Below, piece by piece: positions 47,597 through 64,000 of a stretch of DNA of 64,000 bases. How positions within the stretch are numbered: the stretch's first letter is position 1; each line of letters opens with the position of its first letter. The translations under genes and the position numbers were made by a program. The notes beneath the pieces are model-generated. The model had not been told where the DNA came from, did no database searches, and saw only the letters and a list, made by a program, of their open reading frames with translations. This DNA comes from Serpentinicella alkaliphila (lineage in GTDB: Bacteria; Bacillota; Clostridia; Peptostreptococcales; Natronincolaceae), in the NCBI RefSeq assembly GCF_018141405.1, contig NZ_CP058648.1, positions 201,001-265,000 of the forward strand, in the 5' to 3' direction.

Positions 47597-48112
47597 TTAT
47601 GTAAATATAATATTTGGTATGCATTTAATCTGCATAAACTGCCGTTTGAATGTAGAAAGACAGTGTCTTATGATGGATACGATATCATCGGCAATAGAAA
47701 ATCCGAAAGCAGCAAGAGCTTCCTTCCAGTACCTTAAATACATACTGATAACATATCTGATGTTACTTTCATCTATATATTCATTGGTAGTCATAATGGA
47801 TTCAAATGAATCATTGGAAATATATGCTCTTATAATTGATATATGGTCATTAAGAAGTATTTGGGAGTAAGGAACGATAAACTTAGGGAATATGGCATGC
47901 GTCTTGCCACAGCGTTTACATTTCATGCGCAAAATGGACAGTGTAATGAAACCTTCGGGTGTCTTAATAGAACGGTTATAGTAACCATGTTTAATAAGGC
48001 AGCCAGACAAGGTACAGGAGCAAGATAATTGGTAGAGGTTTATAGTATCAAGAAATTTATTATATGAAATTTGATTAAATGTATTGATTTTATCTGTAAT
48101 TAGAGTTATCAT
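47597..48112 (-). CDS. DUF6431 domain protein of the transposon
   Basis: 171 residues, the only intact frame of the element. Zinc-ribbon-like Cys pairs: SCSCTLSGCLIKHGYYNRSIKTPEG and MKCKRCGKTHAIFP. DUF6431 proteins are typically encoded next to this transposase type and may bind the transposon ends (inference). Confidence 0.8.
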   Translation of the reverse strand: MITLITDKINTFNQISYNKFLDTINLYQLSCSCTLSGCLIKHGYYNRSIKTPEGFITLSILRMKCKRCGKTHAIFPKFIVPYSQILLNDHISIIRAYISNDSFESIMTTNEYIDESNIRYVISMYLRYWKEALAAFGFSIADDIVSIIRHCLSTFKRQFMQIKCIPNIIFT

Positions 48113-48977: not shown

Positions 48978-49577
48978 TCATCCCTTGATTCTATTTTTCT
49001 TCATGAAATGATAGATGATATATATCCCAATACCGACAGTAATCAAAATAGTTAAACTATCTGAATATCTACTAAGTGTGAAGATGTGATCGCCTAAGAA
49101 TACATACAGCACCGTCCCTGGCAGCATTCCAATTCCCGTAGCTATTAAGAAATCTAAAAACCGTATATTACTTAAGCCCGCAGCATAGCTTAAAAAATCA
49201 AAAGAAATAAAAGGTATTAGTCGACCAATCAAGATTACTTTCATGCCATGTTCTGTACTGATTTCTTGGACTTTAACTATTATAGAATTATTTTTCTGGA
49301 ACCACCTTTGTACAAAACCCATACCAAGACTACGAGCAAGGTAAAATGTACCTGCAGCACCAAGCATAGCACCGCTCCAAGAAATTATGGTTCCCCCAAC
49401 GAGTCCAAAAACAACACCATTTGCTCCAGTAATTAAAAATGCAGGTATTGGTGCAACAAAAGCTTGTAATATCATCAAGAGTATACTGACAACCGGTGCG
49501 GCTACCCCCCATCTACGAATTATTATAACTACATCGTCTAAAGAACCATAGGAAAGTATATTGTAAAAATTCTTCAA
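48978..49577 (-). CDS. TVP38/TMEM64 (VTT domain) membrane protein, 5' frameshift
   Basis: 199 residues from a TTG at 49577, carrying the VTT core: LMILQAFVAPIPAFLITGANGVVFG, GAMLGAAGTFYLARSLG, ILIGRLIPFISFDFLSYAAGLSNI and GTVLYVFLGD. VTT proteins are DedA-like and are thought to move lipids or act in redox-linked membrane processes. A proper RBS and ATG at 49665 open MKQKIKNKKLVITIVLTLLS, the expected first membrane helix, but that frame stops near 49580 and is offset by one base. The natural gene probably ran 48978-49665 and has a frameshift. Confidence 0.8.
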   Translation of the reverse strand: MKNFYNILSYGSLDDVVIIIRRWGVAAPVVSILLMILQAFVAPIPAFLITGANGVVFGLVGGTIISWSGAMLGAAGTFYLARSLGMGFVQRWFQKNNSIIVKVQEISTEHGMKVILIGRLIPFISFDFLSYAAGLSNIRFLDFLIATGIGMLPGTVLYVFLGDHIFTLSRYSDSLTILITVGIGIYIIYHFMKKNRIKG

Positions 49578-49886: not shown

Positions 49887-50603
49887 TTATTTTAAATCAT
49901 TCATGTCAATTCCTTTTTTCTTCGCAATATATTTAGGTATCAGTGAAATAAGGAATAGAATTATACCTGCAATTGCAAATTTTACAAGTAATCCTGCTGA
50001 GAAACCATTTGTTACTATTTCACCAGCCATATAAGCATAGATGAATGCTCCAGGTGTCATACACAATAACGACACGATAAAGTAAGTGGATAGGTCTATT
50101 TTGGTTAATCCATAAGCATAGTTTTGAAATGAGAATGGGAAAACAGGAACCAAACGAGTTAATATTAAAAAACTAGTGCCGTTCTTTTCTACACCATCAT
50201 CTATTTTTTTGAACATTTGATTTTGACCAATCTTGTCTTCGATCATTCCCCTCGCAACATATTTCGCAACTAAGAATGCCGCCGTAGCACCAAAGGTTGC
50301 ACCGATAAGAGAAACTACTCCACCTATGATCGGTCCAAAGGCAATTCCACCTACAATTGTAAGCATAGACCCTGGTAACATAAATACACAAGCAACAATA
50401 AACACAAATATGAATACCAAGTAACCCCATATGCCAAATGATTTTAAGAATGCTTGCATTGCCTCTACATCCTGTAGTTTACTTACAACACCAGTCTTCC
50501 ACGCTATAAAAAATCCTGTGGCTATCAGCAATACTACAGCAATGAGCTTACCTGTATTAGACTTCTTTTCTTGTTCGACTACTTCCTTTGCCATTAACCG
50601 CAC
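49887..50603 (-). CDS. TVP38/TMEM64 (VTT domain) membrane protein
   Basis: 238 residues, about five or six membrane helices. VTT motifs: FIVACVFMLPGSMLTIVGGIAFGPIIGG (about 69-95), IGATFGATAAFLVAKYVARG, FLILTRLVPVFPFSFQNYAYGLTKI and TPGAFIYAYMAGEI. A paralogue of the neighbouring VTT gene; RBS AGGAGGTGCG. Followed by a strong terminator, so it and the next VTT gene are probably separate transcripts. Confidence 0.9.
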   Translation of the reverse strand: MRLMAKEVVEQEKKSNTGKLIAVVLLIATGFFIAWKTGVVSKLQDVEAMQAFLKSFGIWGYLVFIFVFIVACVFMLPGSMLTIVGGIAFGPIIGGVVSLIGATFGATAAFLVAKYVARGMIEDKIGQNQMFKKIDDGVEKNGTSFLILTRLVPVFPFSFQNYAYGLTKIDLSTYFIVSLLCMTPGAFIYAYMAGEIVTNGFSAGLLVKFAIAGIILFLISLIPKYIAKKKGIDMNDLK

Positions 50604-51099
50604 CTCCTATTTAATATAAGATTTAATCCAGGTAGTGGGAGGCCTATAGACCCTCCCACTAATAATGACTTGACTTGATCGCTCCACTTTATAATTCAAA
50701 TTTACTAGGAAACTCCACTCAATACATGAACAATCAATTCTAAACTTTCTAAACCGTACTGGGATTTAGAGCACTATAATCATCTCTCGCCGGACGTTTT
50801 AGTACATTGGGTTATGTACTAATATTAATCTGCTGACTTTCTGATTCAGTCATTGCCTTTCCTTTTACTACACTTATAATGAAGACTTTGTTTGAATATG
50901 CGTCATACTTCATTTCTTATTTACTAAGCTGTGTATCCGTTTCACCTCTGGCGGCTTTCAACCACCAATTTGCCAACACATACTAAAGCTAGGGATAATA
51001 CAATTAATAAAAATCTTTTCATGTACTCTTCAATCTTCTAGTTGTTAAATTTTTAACCACTCTATCCATACAGAAATTTTATTATCTATTTAACTTTTA
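50604..51099. other. Intergenic region with hairpin and a possible gene remnant
   Basis: 496 bp. It contains the perfect hairpin TAGTGGGAGG...CCTCCCACTA (50633-50661) without a U run, and on the minus strand near 51020 a short frame MKRFLLIVLSLALVCVGK, a signal-peptide-like start broken after about 26 codons; further similarity-like pieces (KVFIISVVKGKAM) suggest a decayed secreted protein. Nothing here is a live gene. Confidence 0.45.
50633..50661. repeat. GC-rich hairpin between the redox genes and the VTT genes
   Basis: Ten-bp perfect stem TAGTGGGAGG/CCTCCCACTA, loop 9 nt; lies 30 bp upstream of the VTT start. No T run on either side, so it may be an mRNA-processing or stabiliser hairpin rather than a terminator. 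Confidence 0.55.
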
Positions 51100-51873
51100 C
51101 TACAGTACTTTATTGATGTTTTGTTTAGACTTATATCTGTTTATCCAGCTTTTTATTGGACTTGAAGGTACTCCTGGGAATTCAGTTTTTGAAGTATATA
51201 CAGGCCCGAATATCAAATCTAATATATGAACTGCTTTTTTGTCTCCCTTAACCATAGATTCCCTACATGCAGCGCAATAAGCAACAACATGGTCCGATTT
51301 CATTTCATCCGTTCTTCTCTTCATAACCCGTAATGCCAAATCTGGGTTAGCAGGCACTACCATTCCACCAAAACCACAGCATCTTGTATTCTCCCTGGTA
51401 TGAGGTGGTTCTTCAACCTTATATCCTAGTTCATTCATAATCCATCGAATTCCATCATGGATTTCTTTTTCATCTCTGGTTGGACAGGAGTCGTGAATTG
51501 AAAATACGACATCACTGCTTTTCCCTTTACCGATGGCTTCCTTAGGAAGGCCAATTTGAGGTAATAATGTCCATAATGAAATTACTTTCTGATTCGAGCT
51601 ATATTGTGACATCGTCTTATAGCATGATTGGCATGCCACTATTATTTCCTCAGCCCCTAAGTTATCAACTTCCTTTTGAAATTCTCCATATCTTTCCTGA
51701 AATTTTTTGATTTGACCTAATGCCTTAGTAGGTTTCCCACAACATTTTAGTATCGAGCCAGTTCCTGGTAGCTCTACTTGTAAATATTCAATTACGCTTT
51801 TAACAGCTTCAGGATTATATGAAGGTAAACTACATCCTGGTATGAACACTCTCTTTGTTTCAGCCATTGTCAT
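51100..51873 (-). CDS. (Fe-S)-binding CCG-domain protein, HdrB-like
   Basis: 257 residues with two CCG repeats: IPGCSLPSY...ILKCCGKPTK...VACQSCYKTM and IHDSCPTRD...TRCCGFGGMVV...YCAACRESM. Such repeats bind a non-cubane [4Fe-4S] cluster in HdrB and related thiol/disulfide or quinone-linked redox proteins. The gene starts 8 bp after the flavoprotein gene, so they form a two-subunit unit in which the flavoprotein probably passes electrons to this protein (inference). Confidence 0.88.
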   Translation of the reverse strand: MTMAETKRVFIPGCSLPSYNPEAVKSVIEYLQVELPGTGSILKCCGKPTKALGQIKKFQERYGEFQKEVDNLGAEEIIVACQSCYKTMSQYSSNQKVISLWTLLPQIGLPKEAIGKGKSSDVVFSIHDSCPTRDEKEIHDGIRWIMNELGYKVEEPPHTRENTRCCGFGGMVVPANPDLALRVMKRRTDEMKSDHVVAYCAACRESMVKGDKKAVHILDLIFGPVYTSKTEFPGVPSSPIKSWINRYKSKQNINKVL

Positions 51874-51881
51874 ATCCCCCC

Positions 51882-53708
51882 TTACTCGTTTTTAGCAGTT
51901 GCTTTTGTTTTGGCACTAATTTTTGCTGGTTTTGCAATATTGAAAAATTTTGAGAAACCTAATGTCTGATGCATTTCTATTGCACCGTGTCCCTTCATCG
52001 GTGACTTACCCCCGTTTGCATTAATCATTAGCTTTCTAACATCAAAGAATCGATCTGCCATTACAAAGTCTTTTGGACAGGCTATTGTACATTGATTACA
52101 CATATTACATGAATAAGGTATAATAGGGTCTACTTCCCCAGACTTTAATATATTTGCAAATAATTCCTTTGGACATTCACAATAGTCGTTAAGCATTAAA
52201 CATTCTTTCATACACAGCTTACATTCACATTTTAAACATCTTGATGCTTCTTCTATCGCCTGCTTCTCAGTTAAACCCAAATCAACTTCTACAAAACTTT
52301 TTATTCTGTCCTTGGGAGCAAGCTGTTGTGTCTTTACTCTTGGCAAATCTTCAACATCTAAGTTAATATCTGTTTCTAACCAAGTTTTATATGCTCCCTC
52401 ATATTCTCTGTTCTCCATCATATCTACATTATTTAAATATCTATCTACTGATATGGCAGCTTTTCTACCTTCAGCCATGGCTTCAATTACGATAACGGAT
52501 CTGCCACTGGCATCTCCAGCTATGCAAACATTTTTCAGTTTCGTTTGAAGTGTAGTAGGATCCGCATTAAACCTTCCACCTCTAATCGTTTCAAGCATTC
52601 CTTGAGGAATAAAAGAATTGTCTACCTCCTGACCAACTGCAAATATTACATTATCAACATCTAAAGTTTTCATCATGTTCATATCAAACTTAGGATTGAA
52701 TTTACCTTCTTTGTCAATAATAGATACGCATTTCTTAATTTCAAAGCCAAAAACCTTACCATCTTTTCCAATTATTTGTTCTGGTCCAAAGCTATCATGA
52801 ATAATAACACCTTCTTCTTCAGCTTCTTCTATTTCCCAATCATGGGCAGGCATCTGTTCCTTTGGCTCTAAGCATACAAGATGTACTTCTTCTGCACCAA
52901 CTCTTCTAGCACTTCTTGCAACGTCTATTGCAACGTTACCTCCACCTATAACGGCTATTTTCTTGCCTATTTTAAACTTTCTCGTTAAGCTAACTTCTCT
53001 TAAAAAATCAACTGCATTTGAAACTCCCGTAAGATCATGTCCTTGTACGGGAATTACCACACCTTTATGAGCGCCTACAGCAATAATTACTGCATCGAAC
53101 TTATTTCTTAATTCCTCAAAGGAAATGTCCTTACCTATTTCAATACCTAGTTTTATTTCTACGCCTAGTTTAGTAAGAAAACTATATTCAAAGTCAATAA
53201 TATTTCTAGGTAATCTATATTCTGGAATACCGACTCTCATCATCCCCCCTACTACTTGAAGCTTTTCAAATATTGTTACATTATAACCTTTCTTTCTTAA
53301 GTCCAATGCAGCTTGAGCACCTGCAGGACCTGCTCCAATAATAGCGACCTTCTTAGACTTATCAGGATTTTTACTAAGATCCCAATTACTTTCGTTGTCA
53401 TACTTATCAGCAACAAATCTCTTTAAGGCAGCGATGGACATCGGCTGTCTAAATAACTCCCCTCTCTTACAGTTTTCTTCACACGGATGGGCACAAATTC
53501 TTCCTAAAGACCCGGGCAAAAAAAGCTTTTCTCTTATTCGTCTAATTGCTTCTTCATGCTTGCCTTCACAAATAAGATTTACATAACCTTTTACATCTGT
53601 ATGCATAGGACAAGTAGCTTCACAATAAGCGGGTGCATCTCCCATGCAATCATCCACAATATCTTTCATCTTATCTAAGACTTCTTTTGGATATGTAAAC
53701 TTCTTCAC
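51882..53708 (-). CDS. Fe-S/FAD NAD(P)H oxidoreductase (GltD/NfnB-like) with C-terminal ferredoxin-type domain
   Basis: 608 residues from GTG 53708, chosen because AAAGGGGG lies 7 bp before it; an in-frame ATG upstream would add 15 residues. N-terminal Fe-S helical domain YCEATCPMHTDVKGYVNL and GRICAHPCEENCKRGE; FAD motif VAIIGAGPAGAQAALDLRKKGYNVTIFEK; NAD(P) motif IAVIGGGNVAIDVARSARRVGA; distal FAD VCIAGDASGRSVIVIEAMAEG; then a C-terminal domain with ten or so Cys (RCLKCECKLCMKECLML, YSCNMCNQCTIACPKDF) holding two clusters. It should accept hydride from NAD(P)H and pass single electrons to the HdrB-like partner. Confidence 0.9.
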   Translation of the reverse strand: MKKFTYPKEVLDKMKDIVDDCMGDAPAYCEATCPMHTDVKGYVNLICEGKHEEAIRRIREKLFLPGSLGRICAHPCEENCKRGELFRQPMSIAALKRFVADKYDNESNWDLSKNPDKSKKVAIIGAGPAGAQAALDLRKKGYNVTIFEKLQVVGGMMRVGIPEYRLPRNIIDFEYSFLTKLGVEIKLGIEIGKDISFEELRNKFDAVIIAVGAHKGVVIPVQGHDLTGVSNAVDFLREVSLTRKFKIGKKIAVIGGGNVAIDVARSARRVGAEEVHLVCLEPKEQMPAHDWEIEEAEEEGVIIHDSFGPEQIIGKDGKVFGFEIKKCVSIIDKEGKFNPKFDMNMMKTLDVDNVIFAVGQEVDNSFIPQGMLETIRGGRFNADPTTLQTKLKNVCIAGDASGRSVIVIEAMAEGRKAAISVDRYLNNVDMMENREYEGAYKTWLETDINLDVEDLPRVKTQQLAPKDRIKSFVEVDLGLTEKQAIEEASRCLKCECKLCMKECLMLNDYCECPKELFANILKSGEVDPIIPYSCNMCNQCTIACPKDFVMADRFFDVRKLMINANGGKSPMKGHGAIEMHQTLGFSKFFNIAKPAKISAKTKATAKNE

Positions 53709-53996
53709 AACTATACCCCCTTTTCCACAATTTAAAATTTTCGATTGCATCACTACGTTTATTTAACGCTATTCAATTTATTGGATATTATTATAATACA
53801 GATATTTGCATTAACATTAACAGATATCATTCATAGAATATAATAATGTGTATGTGGTATAATGGAATTGTTAGAATTAAAACTTGTTAAGGTGAGTTAA
53901 CCATTACTAAAATTTATTATTGTTAAATATTAAACAGTACTTCTATGTTAATTATAATATAAAGCCTGTTAAATGTTTAATAAGTGTTCATTATAA

Positions 53997-54012
53997 CATG
54001 AGTTATGCAGTT
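53997..54012 (+). repeat. IS4-type left inverted repeat
   Basis: CATGAGTTATGCAGTT; exact inverse of 55665-55680. Confidence 0.93.
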
Positions 54013-55493
54013 GACTCCATATACTGGGAATTTTGCACAGTAAACCAACCTAACAATAAATTCTTCGGCCAAAATTTATCAATAAGTCTTGCAAATTGCC
54101 TAACTTCTGTGTCAAAATGTACTTGTATAGTTTGAAAGCATTGCTGTGCTTTTATAACGATACGGTATGTGGCGTTGAAAAAGTTTCGGACCATTTCGCC
54201 GTGGGTGAAGCCTTCTTGACGCCTTTATTATTGAGTTCCCATCTTGCATAGACAAGTAAAGTTTTCTTTGTAAAAATGAGCTCAATATGGGCGTAATGAT
54301 GACTTTCCGACGTTGAGTGGCAAGAATTCAACCCCAGTTCTTGTTTTGCAGTTCTAAAAAAAACCTCAATGCTCCAACGCTTAATATATGCATCTAAAGC
54401 TTCTTCAGGATTATCGACCCTATTACTAATCAAAAGGTAAGCCCCACGATATGTAGCCGCAACCTCTTTGTTTTTCTCAAATTCATCCTTCATCATTTCA
54501 GTATCTTCTTTGAGTCTTGTAGCTACAACTGCCGCAATAGGCGTATAACGATACTTAGTTACTACTTTACCCTGCTTTCCAACTAAACGGTAGGGTAACT
54601 TGATATAAATATTAGGTATGGATATAGCACTTACTTTATCTTTTAGACCACTAATAAGAAGTTTGAAAAAAACTTCTTTAATAAGCATTGAAGGCTTTAC
54701 AGGGATAAAGCGTTCTCGGCCTGTAATATTCTCAATTTCTTTTCGATAAAAGTCAGTATTACGTTTTGCCTTAGTAACCCAATCATATTGATGATCTGTG
54801 AGCCAATTAAAAAAGTCTTTGCATAAAAACCCGGCGGTCCATGGCAACCCATAGTACCCCTGTGTAAATCCGGCGAATATCCATTAGCATTTCTTTTGAA
54901 AGATCTATTTTTGTCTGTTTTTCATCGCTATTTTCTACCTTACGCCAAATACGCCAAAACAATGGATATTTAAGTCCGTTCTTTAATACAACAGTTGTAG
55001 CAACTATATTCATACACCAGATATTTATTTTAATGGAGCTATCATATAACCAACAAAGGAAAGGGATTTTCTTTCCATGGGCATGAGCCACCTTTGTATC
55101 ATCAAGTACAATAACATCTCCTTCAGTAAATGCAGTTTCTTCTTCTTGTTGTAGTCTTTGTACTCTTTTAAAACTAAATAAACCCCAATTATAATCAGTT
55201 GTAAAAAAGCGGCTAAAGGTATATTGAGCCATTTTAAGATTCCGAAACATCGGTTGTAATAAGCTATCCTTAGTAGCATAATCAGAAATACGTGAGACAG
55301 AATTTTTATTAGCAATAAGTCCTACCACATAAGCAAAAGCAATAAGCCAAGTGGGTACACCATTACGTTTTACAATACCCGATTGCGTAAGCAGAAGTGA
55401 AAAATCAAATTTATCCCAAATTGCTTTTAAAACTGGCGTTCCGCCCCCATTTCCTTGTTGTAAATTTCTATATTTCGGTTTCCCAAGAGTCAT
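54003..55493 (-). pseudogene. IS4-family transposase, two frameshifts
   Basis: About 497 codons from ATG 55493 (MTLGKPKYRNLQQGNGGG, RBS GGGTGAT). First Asp region GDVIVLDDTKVAHAHGKK; second Asp in WVAMD, where the first frame breaks (GACCGCCGG near 54845 has one base too many for D-A-G-F); the frame resumes AGFLCKDFFNWLTD. The YREK signature YIKRWSIEVFFRTAKQELGL supplies the Glu. A second shift near 54215 moves to the frame EGFTHGEMVRNFFNATYRIVIKA ending at 54003. Likely inactive. Confidence 0.88.
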
Positions 55494-55664
55494 ATTTATC
55501 ACCCATTCATCAAGAGTAATGGCTATTAATACCATTCACTTTGATTATTGGGGCGGGTTTAAAAAGTCAAGTCTTTTTTGCTATTTCAAGACATATAAAA
55601 CAAAAATATTTTTTAGTATATTATAATATACGATACATCAGTCTTATTTACATTTATTTACACG

Positions 55665-55680
55665 AACTGCATAACTCATG
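55665..55680 (-). repeat. IS4-type right inverted repeat
   Basis: AACTGCATAACTCATG; exact inverse of 53997-54012, followed by the ATTATAA duplication. Confidence 0.93.
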
Positions 55681-55788
55681 ATTATAATACATAATAGTTA
55701 TTTATTGTAAAATGTATGGTATAATAAATTACTGCTACTTTATATCCAGCATCGGTCTACAGATAAAACTGACATGGTGGGTGATTAT

Positions 55789-56679
55789 ATGAATCTTCAG
55801 TATATGAAAGCATTTTATGTAACCGTAAAGGTAAATAGTATTTCAAAAGCTGCAAAAATTCTTCACCTGACTCAACCTGGCTTAAGCATGCAAATCCAAG
55901 CTTTAGAAAAAGAGCTTCAGGTAAGCTTGCTCAACAGAAGTAACAAAGGAGTAGAGCTAACTGACGCCGGGAAAGTTGTCTTTGATTATGCTACAACAAT
56001 ACTTTCATTAAAAGATAATATTGAACGGGATTTAGAAAGCTTAAAGACTGACAAGAAAAGCCTACTCATTGGCTCTTGTAAAGCCTTAGGAGAATATGCC
56101 CTGCCATGCAGTATCTATGTTTTTAAGCACAACCATAAGGATGTAGATATTAATATTGAAATTAGCAATACTGCAAATGTTGCAGAGAACATCATTAATA
56201 AGACCATTAACATAGGTATACTCCATGGCATTGTGAAAAGTAAGGGACTATGTATAGAAAAAATTACCTCAGATAGACTTCTTCTTGTTACATCACTGCC
56301 TTTGGTAAAGAACGAAGTTAGCTTAGAAGATTTTAAGCGCCTTCCACTAATTTTTAGAGAAAATGGTTCAGGTACAAGAAAAACAATTTTAGATGCCTTA
56401 ACTCCATTTAAAATTGGCTATGAAGATCTTAATATTATTTATGAGCTAAACTCTATGGAAGCTATTAAGACATCTGTTCTATCAGGAAAAGGAATCTCTT
56501 TTATCCCAGAGCTAACTATAAAAAGAGAGTTAAAGGATGGACTCCTGAAAGAAATAAAAATTGATAAGCTAGATTTAATAAGCGATTTTTATTTAGCATA
56601 TAATCCTGACCATTACATCATTAACTATGAACAGGAATTTATTCATTTCATCAAATCTTCAAAACGGGGTTTCTGCTAA
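55789..56679 (+). CDS. LysR family transcriptional regulator
   Basis: 296 residues from ATG 55789 (RBS GGTGGGTGAT; an in-frame ATG 15 bp upstream has none). N-terminal winged helix-turn-helix: MNLQYMKAFYVTVKVNSISKAAKILHLTQPGLSMQIQALEKEL (1-43); C-terminal LysR substrate-binding fold (about 90-290; LLIGSCKALGEYALP, FRENGSGTRKTI, GKGISFIPELTI). CysL/CbbR-like ligand pocket. Originally divergent from the flavoprotein operon (start 53708), now separated from it by the IS4 element; LysR genes often control the divergent operon (inference). Confidence 0.92.
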   Translation: MNLQYMKAFYVTVKVNSISKAAKILHLTQPGLSMQIQALEKELQVSLLNRSNKGVELTDAGKVVFDYATTILSLKDNIERDLESLKTDKKSLLIGSCKALGEYALPCSIYVFKHNHKDVDINIEISNTANVAENIINKTINIGILHGIVKSKGLCIEKITSDRLLLVTSLPLVKNEVSLEDFKRLPLIFRENGSGTRKTILDALTPFKIGYEDLNIIYELNSMEAIKTSVLSGKGISFIPELTIKRELKDGLLKEIKIDKLDLISDFYLAYNPDHYIINYEQEFIHFIKSSKRGFC

Positions 56680-56857
56680 TAGAACTCTTATCCTTTGTAT
56701 TCATAATTACAAGTATTGATAAAAACAATAATAGCAACACCCACGATATCTTCTATATCATAGGTGTCTGGTGCTAGAATATAAATAGTACAAGTAGAAA
56801 GTGGAAAATTCCAAAAATAAAGTTATAATGAAATTAGTGAAAGATGGAGGAATAGAC

Positions 56858-57145
56858 ATGAGTAAACAGTATACAAAAGAATTTAAAGAGGATGCAGCTA
56901 GGTACTATTTAGAGCATAAAGACTTAGGATTAATGGTTTGTGCAAAGAATTTGGGGGTAAGTAGAACAGCATTATCAGCTTGGGTAAAAGAATCAAAGTC
57001 AAATAATGGTGAGGTGCCTACGAGAGGATCTGGTAATTACCAAAGTGATGAAGCTAAAGAAAATGCAAGACTACGTAAAGAGTTAAGAGATGCGCAGGAT
57101 GCATTAGAAATACTAAAAAAGGCAATCAGCATTCTGGGAAACTAA
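56858..57145 (+). CDS. IS3 transposase OrfA
   Basis: 96 residues from ATG 56858 (RBS GGAGGAAT). Helix-turn-helix KQYTKEFKEDAARYYLEHKDLGLMVCAKNLGVSRTALSAWVKE and a C-terminal leucine zipper ENARLRKELRDAQDALEILKKAI. It ends in the slippery region where a -1 shift gives the OrfAB fusion. Confidence 0.92.
   Translation: MSKQYTKEFKEDAARYYLEHKDLGLMVCAKNLGVSRTALSAWVKESKSNNGEVPTRGSGNYQSDEAKENARLRKELRDAQDALEILKKAISILGN
57115..57121 (+). other. Programmed -1 frameshift site of the IS3 element
   Basis: AAAAAAG heptamer near the end of orfA; orfB lies in the -1 frame. Typical for production of the OrfAB transposase. Confidence 0.7.
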
Positions 57146-57225
57146 CAGAGGCTCTCTTTATAGAAACATCCCAAAAGGAAGATGAATTAAATGGAGAGGG
57201 AAAACGCCGGCTTAATGTTAGCGGA

Positions 57226-58059
57226 GTGCTTAAAATACTAGGCGTTTCTAGGAGTGGTTATAATTCTTTTAAGAAAAGGATTCCTTCAGATATGAATAAG
57301 AGAAAAGAATATATAAAGGTTCAAATTAAGCAAATACATGATGAGTCTTATCAGAACTATGGAGCTCCTAAAATAACACAGCTTTTACAACAAAATGGAG
57401 AAACCATATCAGAAAAAACAGTAGGTAACTATATGAGAGAAATGGGAATAAAAGCCCAATATGTAAAGCCATATACGATTACAACAATAGATTCGAATTT
57501 TAGTGAGGAACTTACTAATATATTGAATAAGGAATTTAACCCATCCGAACCAAACGCAGTATGGTATTCTGATATTACATATATTTGGACCTATGAAGGG
57601 TTTGTATATTTAACTAGTATAATGGACCTGTATTCAAGAAAAATAATATCTTGGGTGCTTAGTACTACCCTAGAAGCAAAATGGGTAATAGAAGCAATTA
57701 ATAAAGCCAAGGCATCACGGAATATAAGTAAACCATTAGTTATGCATTCAGATCGCGGGGTGCAATATACATGTACAGCATATCAAAAATCTACAGAAAA
57801 ATTTATAAATAGTTATTCTAGGAAAGCTAATCCATGGGATAATGCATGTATAGAATCATTCCATGCATTAATTAAAAGAGAGTGGATAAATAAATTCAAG
57901 ATATTAGATTATAATCATGCATATCGATTGGTTTTTAACTATATAGAAGCATTTTATAATACAGTAAGAATACATAGCCATTGTGGATATTTATCTCCAA
58001 ATCAGTATGAAGCTGAATATAACAAGGAGCTAAGCAAATTATACCAAGAAGCGAGTTGA
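57226..58059 (+). CDS. IS3 transposase OrfB (DDE integrase core)
   Basis: 277 residues. HTH_21 region DESYQNYGAPKITQLLQQNG, catalytic DDE core: AVWYSDITYIWTYEGFVYL (first Asp), VMHSDRGVQYTCTAY (second Asp) and NPWDNACIESFHALIKREW (Glu, DDE spacing about 35), then YIEAFYNTVRIHSHCGYLSPNQYE. Frame intact, so the element could still move. Normally translated as part of OrfAB. Confidence 0.93.
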   Translation: MLKILGVSRSGYNSFKKRIPSDMNKRKEYIKVQIKQIHDESYQNYGAPKITQLLQQNGETISEKTVGNYMREMGIKAQYVKPYTITTIDSNFSEELTNILNKEFNPSEPNAVWYSDITYIWTYEGFVYLTSIMDLYSRKIISWVLSTTLEAKWVIEAINKAKASRNISKPLVMHSDRGVQYTCTAYQKSTEKFINSYSRKANPWDNACIESFHALIKREWINKFKILDYNHAYRLVFNYIEAFYNTVRIHSHCGYLSPNQYEAEYNKELSKLYQEAS

Positions 58060-58136
58060 CATAATGTTGAATGATGAGAATATTAAGAAAATCCTAATTT
58101 AACTTGTACTTTTTCTTGACATAGTACCAGTCGCTA

Positions 58137-59150
58137 TTAAATATTTACCTTGAAGTAGTCTTTCAAAAGATTCTTCATGAAGTATATATCTAAATACTCT
58201 TGTATCTTTCTAAATGTGTCCATATTTTTTATTTCCTTATCAGGCTTTTGATATTCCAGCCACGCATAGGCACACCAGGATAATGCCCTTAGGTAGAGAT
58301 AAGGGTTATAAAGGCGTACCCTTTCTTTTATATGGCGGTCCTTCCCCTCTAAATTTTCAATATAGGTTCTGAAGAATGTATTTTTTTCCTCTTCACTTAA
58401 TAAATAGTTTGCTTTCCATAAAGTAGTGGTAGGTGCAAGAAATTGTGACAAGTCTTGACATGGGTCACTAATAACAGGCTTTTCCCAGTCTATCAAGTAG
58501 TTATTTTTAGGGCCTATGATAAAATTATGGGAATTAACCTCTGTATTGTTAATAACAAGCCATTTGTTATCAGCAAAATATCTTTCTCTATCTTTATTTT
58601 GTTGAGCCCAATCTAAAAACATTTCAAAGAATATCTTTAATTTTTTATCTGGCTTTGGAGATTTTAAATATTCCCTTAGTAGTCTACTTCCTTCATCAAT
58701 TCTATCCGTAAATACGTTATGTTCTGTTATGAAATTATTTTTTATACTATTTACATCTATCGAATGAATTCTTGAAAATACCTTTGCTGCTTTCTTCAGA
58801 TCTTTATCATATTCTAAAGGTCTGCCTTCTAGATATTCCATAATCAATATCCCATAATCAAAGTAGGATTTCGTATCATCTACAAAGAATACCTTTGGGG
58901 TCACGCTGCTTGATTCCAATGACTTAAGGGCATTATATTCATATTTTATTTGATTTTCCAATTCTAGCTGACTTCCTGTGTTTACCCTAAAAACATACTT
59001 ATTATTTTTATCTTCTAAGGTGAAATTTATATTATACTCACCTTGAGCCAAAAACTTTACTTTAAAATGATTCTCTATTGTAAGATATTTTCGCAAATCA
59101 TTTGCCTTCACATAATCTCTTATTTTAACCTCTAATGTATTTATTAGCAT
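58137..59150 (-). CDS. APH/choline-kinase-fold phosphotransferase, atypical catalytic loop
   Basis: About 337 residues from ATG 59150. Kinase-like N-lobe FLAQGEYNINFTLEDKNNKYVFRVN; catalytic-loop region WLVINNTEVNSHNFII replaces the usual HGDxxxxN, so the catalytic Asp seems to be Glu, while the Mg-binding DWE (YLIDWEKPVISDPCQDLSQFL) is kept. The substrate is probably a small sugar or amino-alcohol made or imported by the neighbouring genes (inference). The 3' end lies 5 bp from the IS3 right end; the start overlaps the next gene by a few codons, so they are co-transcribed. Confidence 0.8.
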   Translation of the reverse strand: MLINTLEVKIRDYVKANDLRKYLTIENHFKVKFLAQGEYNINFTLEDKNNKYVFRVNTGSQLELENQIKYEYNALKSLESSSVTPKVFFVDDTKSYFDYGILIMEYLEGRPLEYDKDLKKAAKVFSRIHSIDVNSIKNNFITEHNVFTDRIDEGSRLLREYLKSPKPDKKLKIFFEMFLDWAQQNKDRERYFADNKWLVINNTEVNSHNFIIGPKNNYLIDWEKPVISDPCQDLSQFLAPTTTLWKANYLLSEEEKNTFFRTYIENLEGKDRHIKERVRLYNPYLYLRALSWCAYAWLEYQKPDKEIKNMDTFRKIQEYLDIYFMKNLLKDYFKVNI

Positions 59151-59832
59151 TGTATTTATCACTCCATAATTTATTTATAAAAGTTATGGTATTAGTTGGT
59201 AATGTCTTGTCTTTGAAGTAACCAACATCTGCCCTTTGCTTCAAGTCAAACAAATCCTCTTTTGTGTCTATGTCTCTATGCTTATATGTTAGAGCTAGCT
59301 TTAAATCCAAATTATTTACAATATCGATGGTTCCTTCTAACACAGACTCATTTCCCCATTTAAGTTTATTACTAAAAATACCCCCATTATATTTCTTTAT
59401 GCCGATAAAGTAGTAGCCTCCATCCAATGTTGGACCTAGAACTACATCACTTTTCTCTAGCTTATTAAACGAGTCCTTAATTTCATAGGGTTGTATATAC
59501 GGGATATCCGCTCCCATCAAGCAGACTTTTTCATATCCTTTTTCAAAAACATATCTAAAGGCATTAGACATTTTTTTACCCAGGTCATCTCCTACCTGTG
59601 GAAAGCACCGAACAGTTTCTGGCACCATATCCTTAATTAATCCAAAAGCTTGTTCTGGCGTATAGGTAAGGAAGATTTGAATATCATCATTTATAAAACT
59701 AAAAATTTTAAATAAGTCCATTAAAAAGCATTTGTGTAATTCAGCGCATTCGTCTCCCGTTAGGATCTCCATTAATCGAGTTTTTGTACACCCTGGAATC
59801 GGTACCCTTGTCATGAGTATTAATGCTTTCAC
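59125..59832 (-). CDS. DUF2064 / TIGR04282-type glycosyltransferase
   Basis: 235 residues. KALILMTRVPIPGCTKTRLMEIL (2-24) is the nucleotide-binding start of TIGR04282, followed by VCLMGADIPYIQPYEIKDSF and DVVLGPTLDGGYYFIGIKK and, near the end, HRDIDTKEDLFDL. Such proteins form a pair with TIGR04283 in arsenosugar-biosynthesis-type loci. It starts with GTG overlapping the upstream stop (TAGTG). No arsS-type radical SAM gene is in the window, so an arsenosugar product is not shown. Confidence 0.88.
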   Translation of the reverse strand: MKALILMTRVPIPGCTKTRLMEILTGDECAELHKCFLMDLFKIFSFINDDIQIFLTYTPEQAFGLIKDMVPETVRCFPQVGDDLGKKMSNAFRYVFEKGYEKVCLMGADIPYIQPYEIKDSFNKLEKSDVVLGPTLDGGYYFIGIKKYNGGIFSNKLKWGNESVLEGTIDIVNNLDLKLALTYKHRDIDTKEDLFDLKQRADVGYFKDKTLPTNTITFINKLWSDKYNANKYIRG

Positions 59833-60506
59833 TACCTCACCTCCCTATACATTTTGCTAAGTTTTGAAGGAGGAACACCTAGAACATACAATAACTTTAT
59901 TTTATGCATAAATAAAAGGGTTCGTAGTTGACCTCCATTTTGAAACCTTCTTGCAGAGGTTCCAATTGGAATACTCAGAATCTTAATTTTCCCACTTTTA
60001 AATAGTCTCTTGGATAGCTCCCAATCTTCCATTAACTCTATGTTTGGATATCCTCCTAGTTCTAAAAATACGTCTTTTCTAACAAAAATTCCTTGGTCTC
60101 CAAAATAAATTCCGAGATACTTTGCCCGTATATTTGATGTTGCTGCTACAAACTTCATAAATATAGTATCATAGTCATAAAAATAAAGAGAAAATCCTCC
60201 GCCTGTATATCCACTCTTTATAGATTCTTCAATAGCACTTAATGCTTCTACGTTTATTATAGAATCTGAATGAACAAACCATAATATATCTCCATTTGAT
60301 TCTTTTGCGCCACTATTCATTTGTTTAGACCGACCCTTTTCGCTATGAATGACCCTTCCATATTTAGACGCAATGGCTACAGTATTATCCGTACTCCCTC
60401 CATCTACAATGATGATTTCCTTTTCCCCACCTAACAGGGTGACTTGTTCTAGTATTCCTCTAACTTTTCTCTCTTCATTTAATACTGGGATAATAATTGA
60501 AACCAT
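59832..60506 (-). CDS. Family 2 glycosyltransferase, TIGR04283 type
   Basis: 224 residues, cytoplasmic GT-A fold: MVSIIIPVLNEERKVRGIL (1-19), EIIIVDGGSTDNTVAIASKYG, HSEKGRSKQMNSGAKESNGDILWFVHSDS (the DxD-like HSDS) and YFGDQGIFVRKDVFLELGGYPNIELMEDWELSKRL. This matches TIGR04283, partner of the DUF2064 gene downstream. RBS strong; first of the three-gene minus-strand unit with the kinase. Confidence 0.88.
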   Translation of the reverse strand: MVSIIIPVLNEERKVRGILEQVTLLGGEKEIIIVDGGSTDNTVAIASKYGRVIHSEKGRSKQMNSGAKESNGDILWFVHSDSIINVEALSAIEESIKSGYTGGGFSLYFYDYDTIFMKFVAATSNIRAKYLGIYFGDQGIFVRKDVFLELGGYPNIELMEDWELSKRLFKSGKIKILSIPIGTSARRFQNGGQLRTLLFMHKIKLLYVLGVPPSKLSKMYREVR

Positions 60507-60680
60507 AGTGATACCTCGTTTCAGAAAAAAGTGACTACTGTATATATTATTGTAAATTACAAATGCACCATCAACATTTACATAAGATGATACCAGATAA
60601 AGAGAATGGGTCCCTTTGTCTTATGACTCATATGATTTTAAAAGACTTTCAATAAAGGATTAAACACCAATCCTTATCTA

Positions 60681-61697
60681 TTAAACAGGGAACAAGACTG
60701 ATCTATTCGTATCGAATAGTACGGTAACCACATCTCCTATTTGATATGGAGAAGGAAAAGGGATAGTAGTATTCAACTTGATTTTGGTTTCATTATGCTC
60801 TAGTCTAGCGCTATAGTTTTCTCCCTGATAGCTAAGGTCGCAGATTCTAAAATTCTTATTACCATTTGACATTATTTGGACTGCCGAAGGACGAAACATT
60901 ACCTCATATAAACCGTCTGGCTTATCCACACTAAATGAGATAATTTCACTTTGGAAAATATGATCTTTCACAATACCATCTATATAAATTACATCACCGA
61001 AGTAATCTGCCACTTGACGACTGACAGGTGATTCAAAAATTTTCTCAGGTGTATCATACTGTAGAATTTTACCGTCCATCATCAGTGCTACTTTATCGGA
61101 CATGGTTAGCGCTTCATGTCGGTCATGAGTCACCAAAACTGTGGTGATTTTAAACTCCTTCTGTAGCTTTAACACAAGACTGCGCATCTCTTTCCTAAGA
61201 TTTACATCTAGGCTAGAAAAAGGCTCGTCTAATAACAGTACATTTGGCTTTGCGGCCAGGGCTCTTGCAAGGGCTACCCTTTGGATCTGCCCCCCTGACA
61301 TCTCATAGGATCTGCGATTTTCAAAACCAGTAAGTTGTACTTTCTCCAACAATTCCGATGCAATCTTCAGATATTCTTCTTTGGATACCCCACGCATTTT
61401 TAATGGGAAGCTTATATTTTCCACTACCGTCATATGCGGGAATAGACGGAAATCTTGAAATACAATAACGGTGCCTCTCTTGTGACACGGCAATTTATCT
61501 GCAGATTTTCCATCCAGTATAACAGATCCCCTCGTTTGTGGTATGATCCCAGCAATTGTTTTTAAGAGGGTGCTTTTACCACAACCTGATGCTCCTAAAA
61601 GAGAAACAAAGATACCTTCTTCCACTGTGAGGCTAATAGATTTTAAAATTTCCTTCCCGGAAAGAGACACAGAAATATTTTGCAAAGAAAGTTCCAA
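60681..61697 (-). CDS. ABC transporter ATPase, YnjD/PotA-like
   Basis: 338 residues from TTG 61697, chosen because GGAGGAAACATA precedes it. Walker A LLGASGCGKSTLLKTIAG (about 34-51), Q-loop VFQDFRLFPHMTVVENISFPL, signature YEMSGGQIQRVALARALAAKPN, Walker B VLLLDEPFSSLD, H-loop VTHDRHEA, then a C-terminal TOBE-like domain (about 230-338). Belongs to the Fe3+/putrescine/thiamine importer group. It is the last gene of the ABC operon. Confidence 0.92.
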   Translation of the reverse strand: MELSLQNISVSLSGKEILKSISLTVEEGIFVSLLGASGCGKSTLLKTIAGIIPQTRGSVILDGKSADKLPCHKRGTVIVFQDFRLFPHMTVVENISFPLKMRGVSKEEYLKIASELLEKVQLTGFENRRSYEMSGGQIQRVALARALAAKPNVLLLDEPFSSLDVNLRKEMRSLVLKLQKEFKITTVLVTHDRHEALTMSDKVALMMDGKILQYDTPEKIFESPVSRQVADYFGDVIYIDGIVKDHIFQSEIISFSVDKPDGLYEVMFRPSAVQIMSNGNKNFRICDLSYQGENYSARLEHNETKIKLNTTIPFPSPYQIGDVVTVLFDTNRSVLFPV

Positions 61698-61710
61698 TAT
61701 GTTTCCTCCT

Positions 61711-62517
61711 TTACTCCTTTTTATGATGCCAGAAGGCAAATTTCTTAATACAGGCTTCTATCACCACGAAAACTGCCAAAGTAGACAGTACAAATAGTAA
61801 AGCATATGCAGAAGAGATTGTGCGGTCACCACTCTGGATAAAGGGTACCATCATGACAGCGAAGGTTTTGACACTGCCACCTCCAATCATCAGCGTTAAA
61901 AAATACTGACTGAATGAGATAATGTAACCGATACTGATAGAGGCCATAAACCCCGGTAAAAGCAGGGGGAATGTCACATGAGAAAAAGCTTGTCTTGGTG
62001 CAACACCCAATACATGGGCCTGAACTTCTAGACTATCTCCTAAAGAACTGGTGATGTCAATCATAATATTAATTGTATATGGCAATGCATAGATTATATG
62101 TACCAAGATAACGCCAATTATACTATCTGCAATTCCCATTCGAATGAATACCACGTGTATGCCCATGGCGAATACCGTTCCAGGCACAATAATTGGTAAA
62201 ACACTACCAAAAGAAAGAAATTTCTTACCCATAAAGTCATAAAATACCAGCGCTCGTGCAGTCATTGTACCAACTACTGCCGCAAGTACTGCAACAACTA
62301 ATGAAAGTCCAATACTTGAAAACAGTACGGACATCACTCTAGAATGAGGTCCGAACAATTCTTCAACAGCTCGCATAGAGAACCCTTCTGGTATAAGACT
62401 AGGCCAATGCCACCGACTAACAAAACTCCATACAACCAGAATCAAAATGGGTGTTAAAATAGAGAAGACCGATATATATAGAAACAGTTTGAACATTCTA
62501 TACTTTCTAGATATCAT
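61711..62517 (-). CDS. ABC transporter permease, YnjC-like (second half)
   Basis: 268 residues, six membrane helices, starts at ATG 62517 behind GGTGGTGACAAGG. The EAA loop QAHVLGVAPRQAFSHVTFPLLLPGFMASI (about 175-203) contacts the ATPase. In E. coli YnjC the two permease halves are fused; here they are separate genes that overlap slightly. Ends 14 bp before the ATPase start. Confidence 0.9.
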   Translation of the reverse strand: MISRKYRMFKLFLYISVFSILTPILILVVWSFVSRWHWPSLIPEGFSMRAVEELFGPHSRVMSVLFSSIGLSLVVAVLAAVVGTMTARALVFYDFMGKKFLSFGSVLPIIVPGTVFAMGIHVVFIRMGIADSIIGVILVHIIYALPYTINIMIDITSSLGDSLEVQAHVLGVAPRQAFSHVTFPLLLPGFMASISIGYIISFSQYFLTLMIGGGSVKTFAVMMVPFIQSGDRTISSAYALLFVLSTLAVFVVIEACIKKFAFWHHKKE

Positions 62518-63382
62518 CCTTGTCACCACCGGTCTGAAAGATATTTTTTCGCACCATCCAGTAATAAAAGACTGCCATCGCCAGTGTAATTAGTAGCATG
62601 ATGCTATTCATAGCCATTGCATAGGGTCTATGGCGCAAATCAGGATGCATGTACTCAACATAGGCCTGCACAGGCAGAGCCTTTGGCAAAGTCGGTCCCA
62701 GCAGAAAAGGTATCTCATATGCTCCAAAGGAAAAAGCAAAAATAATTAGAAATGCTTTCTTTATAGCAGGCATACATAATGGTAGCGTAATGTAGAAGAA
62801 AGTCTTTAATCTAGAAGCACCTAGGTTTTCTGCAGCTTCACCCAAGGTAGTATTGATACTGGCCATCAGTGCAAGTACAAAATACGCTACAAAAGGTATC
62901 TCTTTCCATAAATAAGCAATTATAATACCTACATTATTTGTACTAAATAATAAGGTAGGAAAGTCTCCCTGTGTATCTAATAGCCCTAGTGCATACATAA
63001 TTCGAGCAAGCAAGCCGTTTTGAGACAAGATTGTAATAATGAATAATGCCACAATGGTATGGGGAATAAGAATCGGTAGCTTTATAATCTGCAAAACTTT
63101 CCCCCTAACATTACCAGTATAGACTAGGACAGCACAAAGCAATACCCCTAGAACTATCGCAAGCACTGATGAAACCAGGGCTATTACAAAACTGACTCGG
63201 ATAGAGTCTATAAACACTGGTTTTTGAAGGATCTCTTCGTAATACCGTAATGTAAAATCCATCATATCAAAAGCGGGGATATATCCGAAACTTTGTACCA
63301 ATGCATTACCAATTCCTAAAAGAAAAAGCAACCCCAACAAAATCATAGGTAAGAGCAAAAAATAAGGTGTCTGATTTTTCAC
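62507..63382 (-). CDS. ABC transporter permease, YnjC-like (first half)
   Basis: 291 residues, six or seven membrane helices, GTG start at 63382 overlapping the upstream small gene's stop (GTGA). EAA loop AENLGASRLKTFFYITLPLCMPAIKKAFL (about 190-218), and the substrate-side helix GAYEIPFLLGPTLPKALPVQAYVEYMHPDLRHRPYAMAM. RBS AAGGAG sits inside the end of the upstream mini-gene. Confidence 0.9.
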   Translation of the reverse strand: MKNQTPYFLLLPMILLGLLFLLGIGNALVQSFGYIPAFDMMDFTLRYYEEILQKPVFIDSIRVSFVIALVSSVLAIVLGVLLCAVLVYTGNVRGKVLQIIKLPILIPHTIVALFIITILSQNGLLARIMYALGLLDTQGDFPTLLFSTNNVGIIIAYLWKEIPFVAYFVLALMASINTTLGEAAENLGASRLKTFFYITLPLCMPAIKKAFLIIFAFSFGAYEIPFLLGPTLPKALPVQAYVEYMHPDLRHRPYAMAMNSIMLLITLAMAVFYYWMVRKNIFQTGGDKDDI

Positions 63383-63540
63383 AGATGGTTCACTCCTTCA
63401 GAAGCATGAAGCAAATTATCAATCCACCCATACTCCTTTGAAATTTCTTCGTAATGGTACGTCTCCACTGGTCGACCCATGGCATCCCCAATAGCTGCAC
63501 CAATCAGCGAGCCATAAACCTTATAATATAAACGGTCCAT
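63379..63540 (-). CDS. Truncated ADP-ribosylglycohydrolase-like mini-gene (53 residues)
   Basis: Too short for routine calling but well placed: ATG 63540 lies in TAATG with the upstream binding-protein stop; the stop TGA at 63379-63381 overlaps the permease start GTG (CTGTGA). The start, MDRLYYKVYGSLIGAAIGD then AMGRPVETY, is the N-terminal signature of ADP-ribosylglycohydrolases (DraG family). Full proteins have about 300 residues; only the first 53 remain, ending ASEGVNHL. Overlaps on both sides suggest an internal in-frame deletion that kept translational coupling. Confidence 0.72.
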   Translation of the reverse strand: MDRLYYKVYGSLIGAAIGDAMGRPVETYHYEEISKEYGWIDNLLHASEGVNHL

Positions 63541-64000
63541 TACTTACCTACAACTTCTTCCGCCCAAATTTCCTCAATTAGTGGGACTAACTTTGCAGGC
63601 ATTTCTGGTAATCGCTTAGAGAGCAATTCATCTTGAGGAATCGTTCCTTTACCAATATGTACCTTGTCAAATAATGCTTTCTCGTCATCCGTCAGCTTAT
63701 CATATTCCACCACAGGTAAAGACTTTAGGGCAGAGAATTGACTTGCCTGCAGTTCCACTGAAATGATTTCGTTAATCGCAACCATAGCGGCTGCCTTATT
63801 CGGGGAGTTTGCTGCAATGGCAATATAATTTGTATTACCTATCATACCATTGTCAAATATAAATGTACGGGCAGTATCAGGAACAATTCCCTTTTCAATA
63901 TCAACAGCTACGGAATAAGACTCATAGCTCATACTCATTACTAATTCACCATCGACAAACATGTTTTCTACCTTCGAAGAAGTGGCAGGAAAGGTTTTCC
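63540..64000 (-). CDS. ABC transporter substrate-binding protein, YnjB-like (partial, 5' end beyond window)
   Basis: The frame runs to the right edge: KTFPATSSKVENMFVDGELVMSMSYESYSVAVDIEKG then FDNGMIGNTNYIAIAANSPNKAAAMVAINEI and the C-terminus RLPEMPAKLVPLIEEIWAEEVVGK. This is the C-terminal third of a YnjB-type periplasmic/lipoprotein binding protein. It begins the transporter operon together with the two permeases and the ATPase; the ligand of this group is not settled (YnjBCD is sometimes called a thiamine-like transporter). Confidence 0.82.
   Translation of the reverse strand, partial: KTFPATSSKVENMFVDGELVMSMSYESYSVAVDIEKGIVPDTARTFIFDNGMIGNTNYIAIAANSPNKAAAMVAINEIISVELQASQFSALKSLPVVEYDKLTDDEKALFDKVHIGKGTIPQDELLSKRLPEMPAKLVPLIEEIWAEEVVGK

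Follow-up and report, generated by a model that had tools for sequence, protein, structure and literature searches.

The importer and sugar-gene segment at the end of a 64,000-nucleotide stretch of Serpentinicella alkaliphila DNA forms an end of one bacterial locus that is conserved widely but has not been studied, a relative of the ydjXYZ-ynjABCDEF operon of Escherichia coli. The stretch (G000:C1:201001-265000; hereafter the window) is from a genome that is a single contig of 3.26 Mb. In order of transcription on the minus strand, the segment (58137-64000) contains ynjB (cut by the end of the window), a relic of a DraG (ADP-ribosylglycohydrolase) gene, genes for two YnjC-type permeases and a YnjD-type ATPase, and three genes that we refer to as the trio: TIGR04283 (T4283), TIGR04282 (T4282), and a gene for an APH-fold protein. 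A first-pass annotation made from the sequence alone had named all of these genes, and profile scores, along with a 53-codon frame for the relic, confirmed that they are present. It had also proposed that the importer and sugar genes belong with nearby VTT, redox, and LysR genes in a locus broken by insertion sequence (IS) elements, and this proposal is borne out by the gene order in relatives described below. A nucleoside hydrolase gene and genes for sulfur transport lie past the window end, outside the view of that annotation.

Gene order in relatives

IS-free relatives hold the genes of the segment in one block. Five loci from our collection (L036, L039, L041, L046, and L049) each have a single IS-free block with the same gene set: a nucleoside hydrolase, YeeE/TusA, ynjBCD, TIGR04283, TIGR04282, the APH-fold gene, LysR, GltD-like and/or CCG genes, a rhodanese, and VTT genes (the assembled block of L036 is without ynjB). 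In the window, two insertions split the block: an IS4-type element separates LysR from the GltD-like gene, and an IS3-type element separates LysR from the APH-fold gene. Based on the IS-free blocks, we conclude that the importer, sugar, LysR, redox, VTT, and sulfur genes almost certainly make up one locus that was split by IS elements.

It is very improbable that these genes are unrelated neighbors whose conserved order reflects inherited hitch-hiking. Some members do stand alone (the trio in L042; the importer and hydrolase in L146), but the gene set recurs in varying orders in Clostridia, Halanaerobium, Fusobacteria, and Spirochaetes, and its modules exclude each other (below). Several gene fusions already disfavor hitch-hiking. 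The single-frame fusions were T4282-T4283 (24 cases), VTT-T4282-CCG (two), and VTT-T4282, VTT-CCG, and rhodanese-YdjY (one each), and they argue strongly for joint action of the sugar, membrane, and redox proteins. Separately, we observed a minimal unit, the trio in the order TIGR04283-TIGR04282-APH, with no nearby importer, VTT, or redox genes in L042, L066, and L072.

The importer of the window was probably exchanged. The APH-fold gene clusters with those of L036, L037, and L038 (support 99/90) and is 71% identical to that of L036, and T4282, T4283, LysR (76%), GltD-like, CCG, and VTT2 are 70-85% identical to their L036 counterparts; for VTT2, identity to the syntenic copies in L036 and L039 is 85-88%. 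In contrast, the window ynjB clusters with that of L146 (78% identity, support 99/93); the clade that holds both has 29 loci, none with YnjF and most with a nucleoside hydrolase. Because the glycosyl-type, LysR, and redox genes follow one lineage and ynjBCD another, we believe that ynjBCD was probably replaced in place, and that the DraG fragment may have been brought along with it. The fragment lies between ynjB and ynjC and has 53 codons followed by a stop; 32 of the 287 positions of PF03747 were matched (E 2.4e-8), and no complete DraG domain is present in 63382-63540. An intact DraG gene is near ynjBCD and a nucleoside hydrolase in L210. We rejected the possibility that the relic is a recent copy of the intact DraG gene of the window genome, as a BLAST comparison gave no match.

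The locus is probably decaying in the window genome, where there are two IS elements, relics of DraG and rhodanese genes, an exchanged importer, and no SelD. Both IS elements are intergenic and none of the locus genes is interrupted. The IS4-type copy occupies the divergent LysR/GltD-like promoter region, and regulation may therefore be lost.

Exclusive modules beside the importer

Related YnjBCD importers have repeatedly swapped the modules that accompany them. We gathered neighborhoods around TIGR04282 relatives and around ynjB in 297 genomes of the order and 398 of the phylum, with one genome per species, and annotated them with profiles and thresholds purpose-built for this analysis; some contigs stop inside the locus. 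There were 97 distinct ynjB loci. YnjF, the CDP-alcohol phosphatidyltransferase (PF01066) that E. coli also has, was found in 39 and a nucleoside hydrolase in 46, mostly alongside the window-type trio, and the two were never found together (0 of 97). YnjF, the hydrolase, or the trio was present in 90 of the 97, and YnjF and the trio were together in one locus only (L045). T4282 and/or the APH-fold gene was near ynjB in 44 of the 97, and the predicted association of the transporter with the sugar genes thus held, where relatives might have had them in unrelated places. A second, phylum-wide sample, drawn after the pattern had been noticed and with one member (L186) from the same genome region as L045, gave one of the modules in 27 of 27 ynjB loci and none with both YnjF and the hydrolase.

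The Fisher test of YnjF against the hydrolase gave p = 8.6e-17, a value that is inflated by ignoring shared ancestry. Changes counted on the YnjB tree are a fairer measure: the YnjF label requires 12 changes, at least nine of them over well-supported branches. Based on this count, we conclude that modules were switched repeatedly and not in a single split. The strict swap of YnjF for the hydrolase and trio among close importers suggests that the imported solute is the same or that the products are comparable, and it restricts the candidate substrate classes to a few.

There is a third class of locus, in which the radical-SAM protein ArsS takes the place of the importer. ArsS was beside the glycosyl-type genes in 12 loci, often with TIGR04169, and in none of the 97 ynjB loci. 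The first-pass annotation had suggested looking for a CDP-alcohol phosphatidyltransferase or a radical SAM gene beyond position 64000. L002, the neighborhood that continues past the window end, had no profile match to YnjF or ArsS, and L003 had none to YnjF. The nucleoside hydrolase and the trio are there instead, and YnjF, as an alternative module, almost never occurs with the trio. As a separate observation, in six clostridial loci, several of them from the gut (L060, L064, L084, L106, L119, and L121), ArsS, TIGR04169, and the trio are in one locus, and these are candidate arsenosugar-type clusters.

Features of the proteins

The proteins of the segment fall into their families by score. The TIGR04282 and TIGR04283 proteins scored 180.7 and 238.7 bits (curated cut-offs 134 and 182), and the complete YnjB, read in L002, scored 451 bits with the YnjB-type model NF008633 (cut-off 203). 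With a YnjB-type binding protein, two permeases, and one ATPase, the system is a YnjBCD importer. The YnjC protein of E. coli is a fused form of the two permease halves.

TIGR04283 is a GT2 family glycosyltransferase, as had been annotated. TIGR04282 had also been called a glycosyltransferase, but it resembles CofC and MobA and is more probably a nucleotidyltransferase. It matched CofC models and a CofC-like fold and has invariant K17, R19, D109, D187, and D189, and among solved structures its closest relative is 3cgx, a putative nucleotide-diphospho-sugar transferase by annotation. The nucleoside hydrolase is of the inosine-uridine type, and its catalytic residues (D19, D21, D32, D33, N159, and D234) were kept across 48 sequences.

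The APH-fold protein, annotated at first pass as a kinase, has the fold (PF01636). Its AlphaFold model (pLDDT 92) matched APH, choline, and homoserine kinases and the N-acetylhexosamine 1-kinase NahK at Z 19-22. In 67 sequences (the window and 66 relatives), N206-T207-E208 is invariant and takes the place of the catalytic HxD motif, as aligned to the HxD of 7s3l, and on this sequence motif the protein appears to belong to an unusual subfamily. Sequence searches of the PDB gave no clear hint of its substrate, nor of that of YnjB (4edp and weak matches to polyamine binders). For the YnjB model (from L057, pLDDT 91), the fold matches at Z 26-28 were binding proteins for sugars and glycosides, among them UgpB with glycerophosphocholine as well as SmoF with sulfoquinovosyl glycerol; these matches do no more than point to a sugar-like ligand.

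A possible pathway and its alternatives

We tentatively propose that the locus imports a ribosyl-type solute, removes the base, activates the sugar, and transfers it to an acceptor, coupled to sulfur or redox chemistry. YnjBCD would import a small ribosyl-type solute from which the nucleoside hydrolase would release the sugar. The APH-fold enzyme would phosphorylate the released sugar, by analogy with the anomeric kinase NahK, which has the same fold, and TIGR04282 would add a nucleotide to give a nucleoside diphosphate sugar. TIGR04283, often fused to TIGR04282, would transfer the sugar onward to an acceptor, a step that probably takes place at the membrane and involves a VTT protein. The sulfur or thiol redox chemistry of the compound would fall to the rhodanese, TusA, YeeE, and the GltD/CCG pair; in favor of this, both YeeE halves and the TusA-like gene have matches in sulfur and selenium transport families. 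Where ArsS replaces the importer, the sugar that reaches the trio would be adenosyl-derived and of intracellular origin rather than imported. We observed the association of the genes, the exclusivity of the modules, the fusions, and the active-site residues; the substrate, the acceptor, and the direction of the pathway are what we infer.

Several findings weigh against this proposal. The hydrolase is present without the trio in eight ynjB loci, many trio loci have no importer in the stretch covered, and ArsS loci are mostly without the hydrolase. The E. coli locus has neither trio nor hydrolase, and the trio is therefore dispensable for the core function. The canonical catalytic Asp of the APH fold is absent and replaced by Glu, which leaves the protein a putative kinase. 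Additionally, YnjB gave a broad range of fold matches that were almost tied (scores less than 1 Z unit apart count as ties), and its sequence profile matches polyamine-binding proteins.

The locus might instead be mainly a system for acquiring sulfur or selenium, with YeeE, TusA, rhodanese, GltD/CCG, and LysR at its center, a sulfur or selenium metabolite as the solute, and sugar enzymes that tag or store the compound. We consider this unlikely, although several matches point to it. The YeeE halves resemble the selenium YedE/FdhT and TsuA models; the rhodanese partially matches ExtH of selenite reduction; LysR is near NF040786; the GltD-like and CCG proteins resemble a split NF045663 protein (282 and 230 versus a cut-off of 530), whose family owes its name to a location close to Sec genes; and ynjE of E. 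coli is annotated as a sulfurtransferase. However, every such match was under the curated cut-off, and YeeE was in just 17 of the 97 ynjB loci. A profile search for SelD stayed under the cut-off in the window genome but went over it in 12 of 12 relatives. With the NF040786 and NF045663 scores under cut-off and no SelD, the locus did not class as selenium-linked. Because SelD is missing, the locus does not rely on selenocysteine in this genome, and selenocysteine metabolism as its purpose was rejected. Selenium use may have been lost in the window species. In the relatives, selD itself is read through a TGA.

A pathway for arsenosugars or other organo-metalloid sugars, in which an adenosyl-metalloid precursor is imported rather than made by ArsS, is improbable. 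NCBI labels TIGR04282 and TIGR04283 as arsenosugar biosynthesis proteins, and the glycosyl-type genes pair with ArsS in the 12 loci without ynjB described above. The 5-deoxyribosyl unit of arsenosugars would fit a nucleoside hydrolase and sugar activation. Nevertheless, ArsS (TIGR04167) was over the cut-off in none of 13 genomes (that of the window, with a best score of 35 bits versus 300, and 12 relatives), ArsS and ynjB never shared a locus, and we came across no report that these anaerobes take up compounds of this kind. No ArsM was noticed at the locus, although no search aimed at ArsM was made. Because the window genome has no ArsS, an arsenosugar product is not supported here, in agreement with the first reading of the sequence.

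A role in nutrition, in which YnjBCD with YnjF or a nucleoside hydrolase takes up and breaks down glycosides and DraG was a helper hydrolase, also appears quite unlikely. L210 pairs ynjBCD, the hydrolase, and intact DraG with sugar isomerase-like, epimerase-like, transketolase, and ComA-like genes, and ynjBCD and the hydrolase are alone in L146-L148, L172, and L173, the first of which has the ynjB closest to that of the window. But L210 is one distant case, the window-type locus is without sugar-breakdown genes, and neither T4282 nor T4283 is a catabolic family. L210 (5635-19797) additionally has an aldehyde ferredoxin oxidoreductase gene, and its ComA-like gene resembles that for phosphosulfolactate synthase; a sulfo-sugar pathway is possible there.

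The proposal of import and transfer of a ribosyl-type unit could be part of a more general, undescribed anaerobic pathway, although we regard this extension as doubtful. A membrane-redox core of VTT, CCG, and rhodanese would put a ribosyl or alcohol unit on a membrane acceptor by means of three interchangeable front ends: YnjBCD with YnjF (E. coli type), YnjBCD with nucleoside hydrolase and trio (window type), or ArsS with trio. If so, it would yield sulfur- or metalloid-bearing glycolipids or phospholipids of a new class.

Features of the window and beyond

The features of the locus are in Table 1. The VTT and redox genes begin approximately 4.4 kb from the APH-fold gene, and LysR is 1.46 kb from it, with the IS3-type element between them. 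The IS4-type element has perfect 16-bp inverted repeats, a 7-bp target duplication (ATTATAA), and a transposase in two frames. The probable rhodanese relic is at the site of the intact rhodanese gene in L036 and L039. An Rfam search found no riboswitches above gathering scores at the locus and downstream. A further transposase-like frame is directly downstream of VTT1 (47597-48112), and L002 9137-16271 has three tandem, highly similar methyl-accepting chemotaxis genes, the middle one split over two frames.

Table 1. Features of the locus in the window and in L002 (L002 coordinate + 59999 = window coordinate).
Feature	Position	Strand	Remarks
VTT1, VTT (YdjX/YdjZ-like, DedA superfamily) membrane protein	48978..49577	-	PF09335, E 1e-26
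VTT2, VTT membrane protein	49887..50603	-	PF09335, E 2e-29
Probable rhodanese relic	50770..50943	-	tblastn 34% over 67 aa, E 0.002 (weak score); position supports
CCG (HdrB-like) protein	51100..51873	-	PF02754; partial NF045663 match, under cut-off
GltD-like NAD(P)/FAD oxidoreductase with Fe-S domains	51882..53753	-	
IS4-type element, split transposase	53997..55680	-	DDE_Tnp_1; LysR/GltD-like intergenic region
LysR regulator	55774..56679	+	near NF040786 ('selenium metabolism-associated LysR'), 236.5 vs cut-off 250
IS3-type element, two orfs, approximate ends	56781..58116	+	rve, HTH_21; imperfect inverted repeats, no clear target duplication
APH-fold protein ('kinase')	58137..59162	-	PF01636, 47.7 bits
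TIGR04282 / DUF2064 CofC-like nucleotidyltransferase-type protein	59125..59832	-	profile match
TIGR04283 GT2 glycosyltransferase	59832..60506	-	profile match
YnjD-type ABC ATPase	60681..61739	-	profile match
YnjC-type permease, homologue of E. coli YnjC C-terminal half	61711..62529	-	
YnjC-type permease, homologue of E. coli YnjC N-terminal half	62507..63382	-	
DraG (ADP-ribosylglycohydrolase) relic	63382..63540	-	first ~32 family positions only
YnjB solute-binding protein, 3' part	63540..64000	-	gene extends to 64778
YeeE2 (half YeeE/YedE)	L002 4910-5500	same as ynjB	upstream of ynjB
TusA-like frame, 75 aa	L002 5439-5666	same as ynjB	between YeeE halves
YeeE1 (half YeeE/YedE)	L002 5687-6379	same as ynjB	
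Nucleoside hydrolase	L002 6591-7496	+	divergent; PF01156, 135 bits
Lipoprotein rhodanese	L002 7539-8453		

Comparison with known systems

Parts of the locus resemble systems that are known. CofC and MobA-like nucleotidyltransferases share with the TIGR04282 protein matches to the CofC model and invariant basic and acidic motif residues, but the protein is under the CofC equivalog cut-off (40 versus 105 bits). TsuA/YeeE-TsuB thiosulfate uptake and YedE/YedF selenium transport share PF04143 halves flanking a TusA-like gene, but the YeeE/YedE protein of this locus is split in two and far under the curated cut-offs of those models. ArsS (TIGR04167) loci share TIGR04282/TIGR04283 and, in most, VTT, CCG, and rhodanese; they differ in having ArsS, often TIGR04169, and no ynjBCD, whereas the window genome is without ArsS. 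Literature on TIGR04282/TIGR04283, ArsS clusters, and the ydj/ynj genes yielded no functional study of this gene set.

The E. coli K-12 operon ydjXYZ-ynjABCDEF (b1750-b1758) shares two VTT proteins, the YnjBCD importer, and a rhodanese (YnjE in E. coli). It is a YnjF-type locus, with YdjY, the AhpD-like YnjA, and YnjF, and in contrast to the window locus it is without the nucleoside hydrolase, trio, GltD/CCG, YeeE/TusA, and LysR. YnjBCD is an uncharacterized transporter (COG4134-4136; PMC9207381), and ydjXYZ-ynjABCD and ynjE are activated by FNR (PMC3688515). A literature search found no function described for the E. coli operon as a unit, and the logic of the locus could make the function of this unexplained operon testable.

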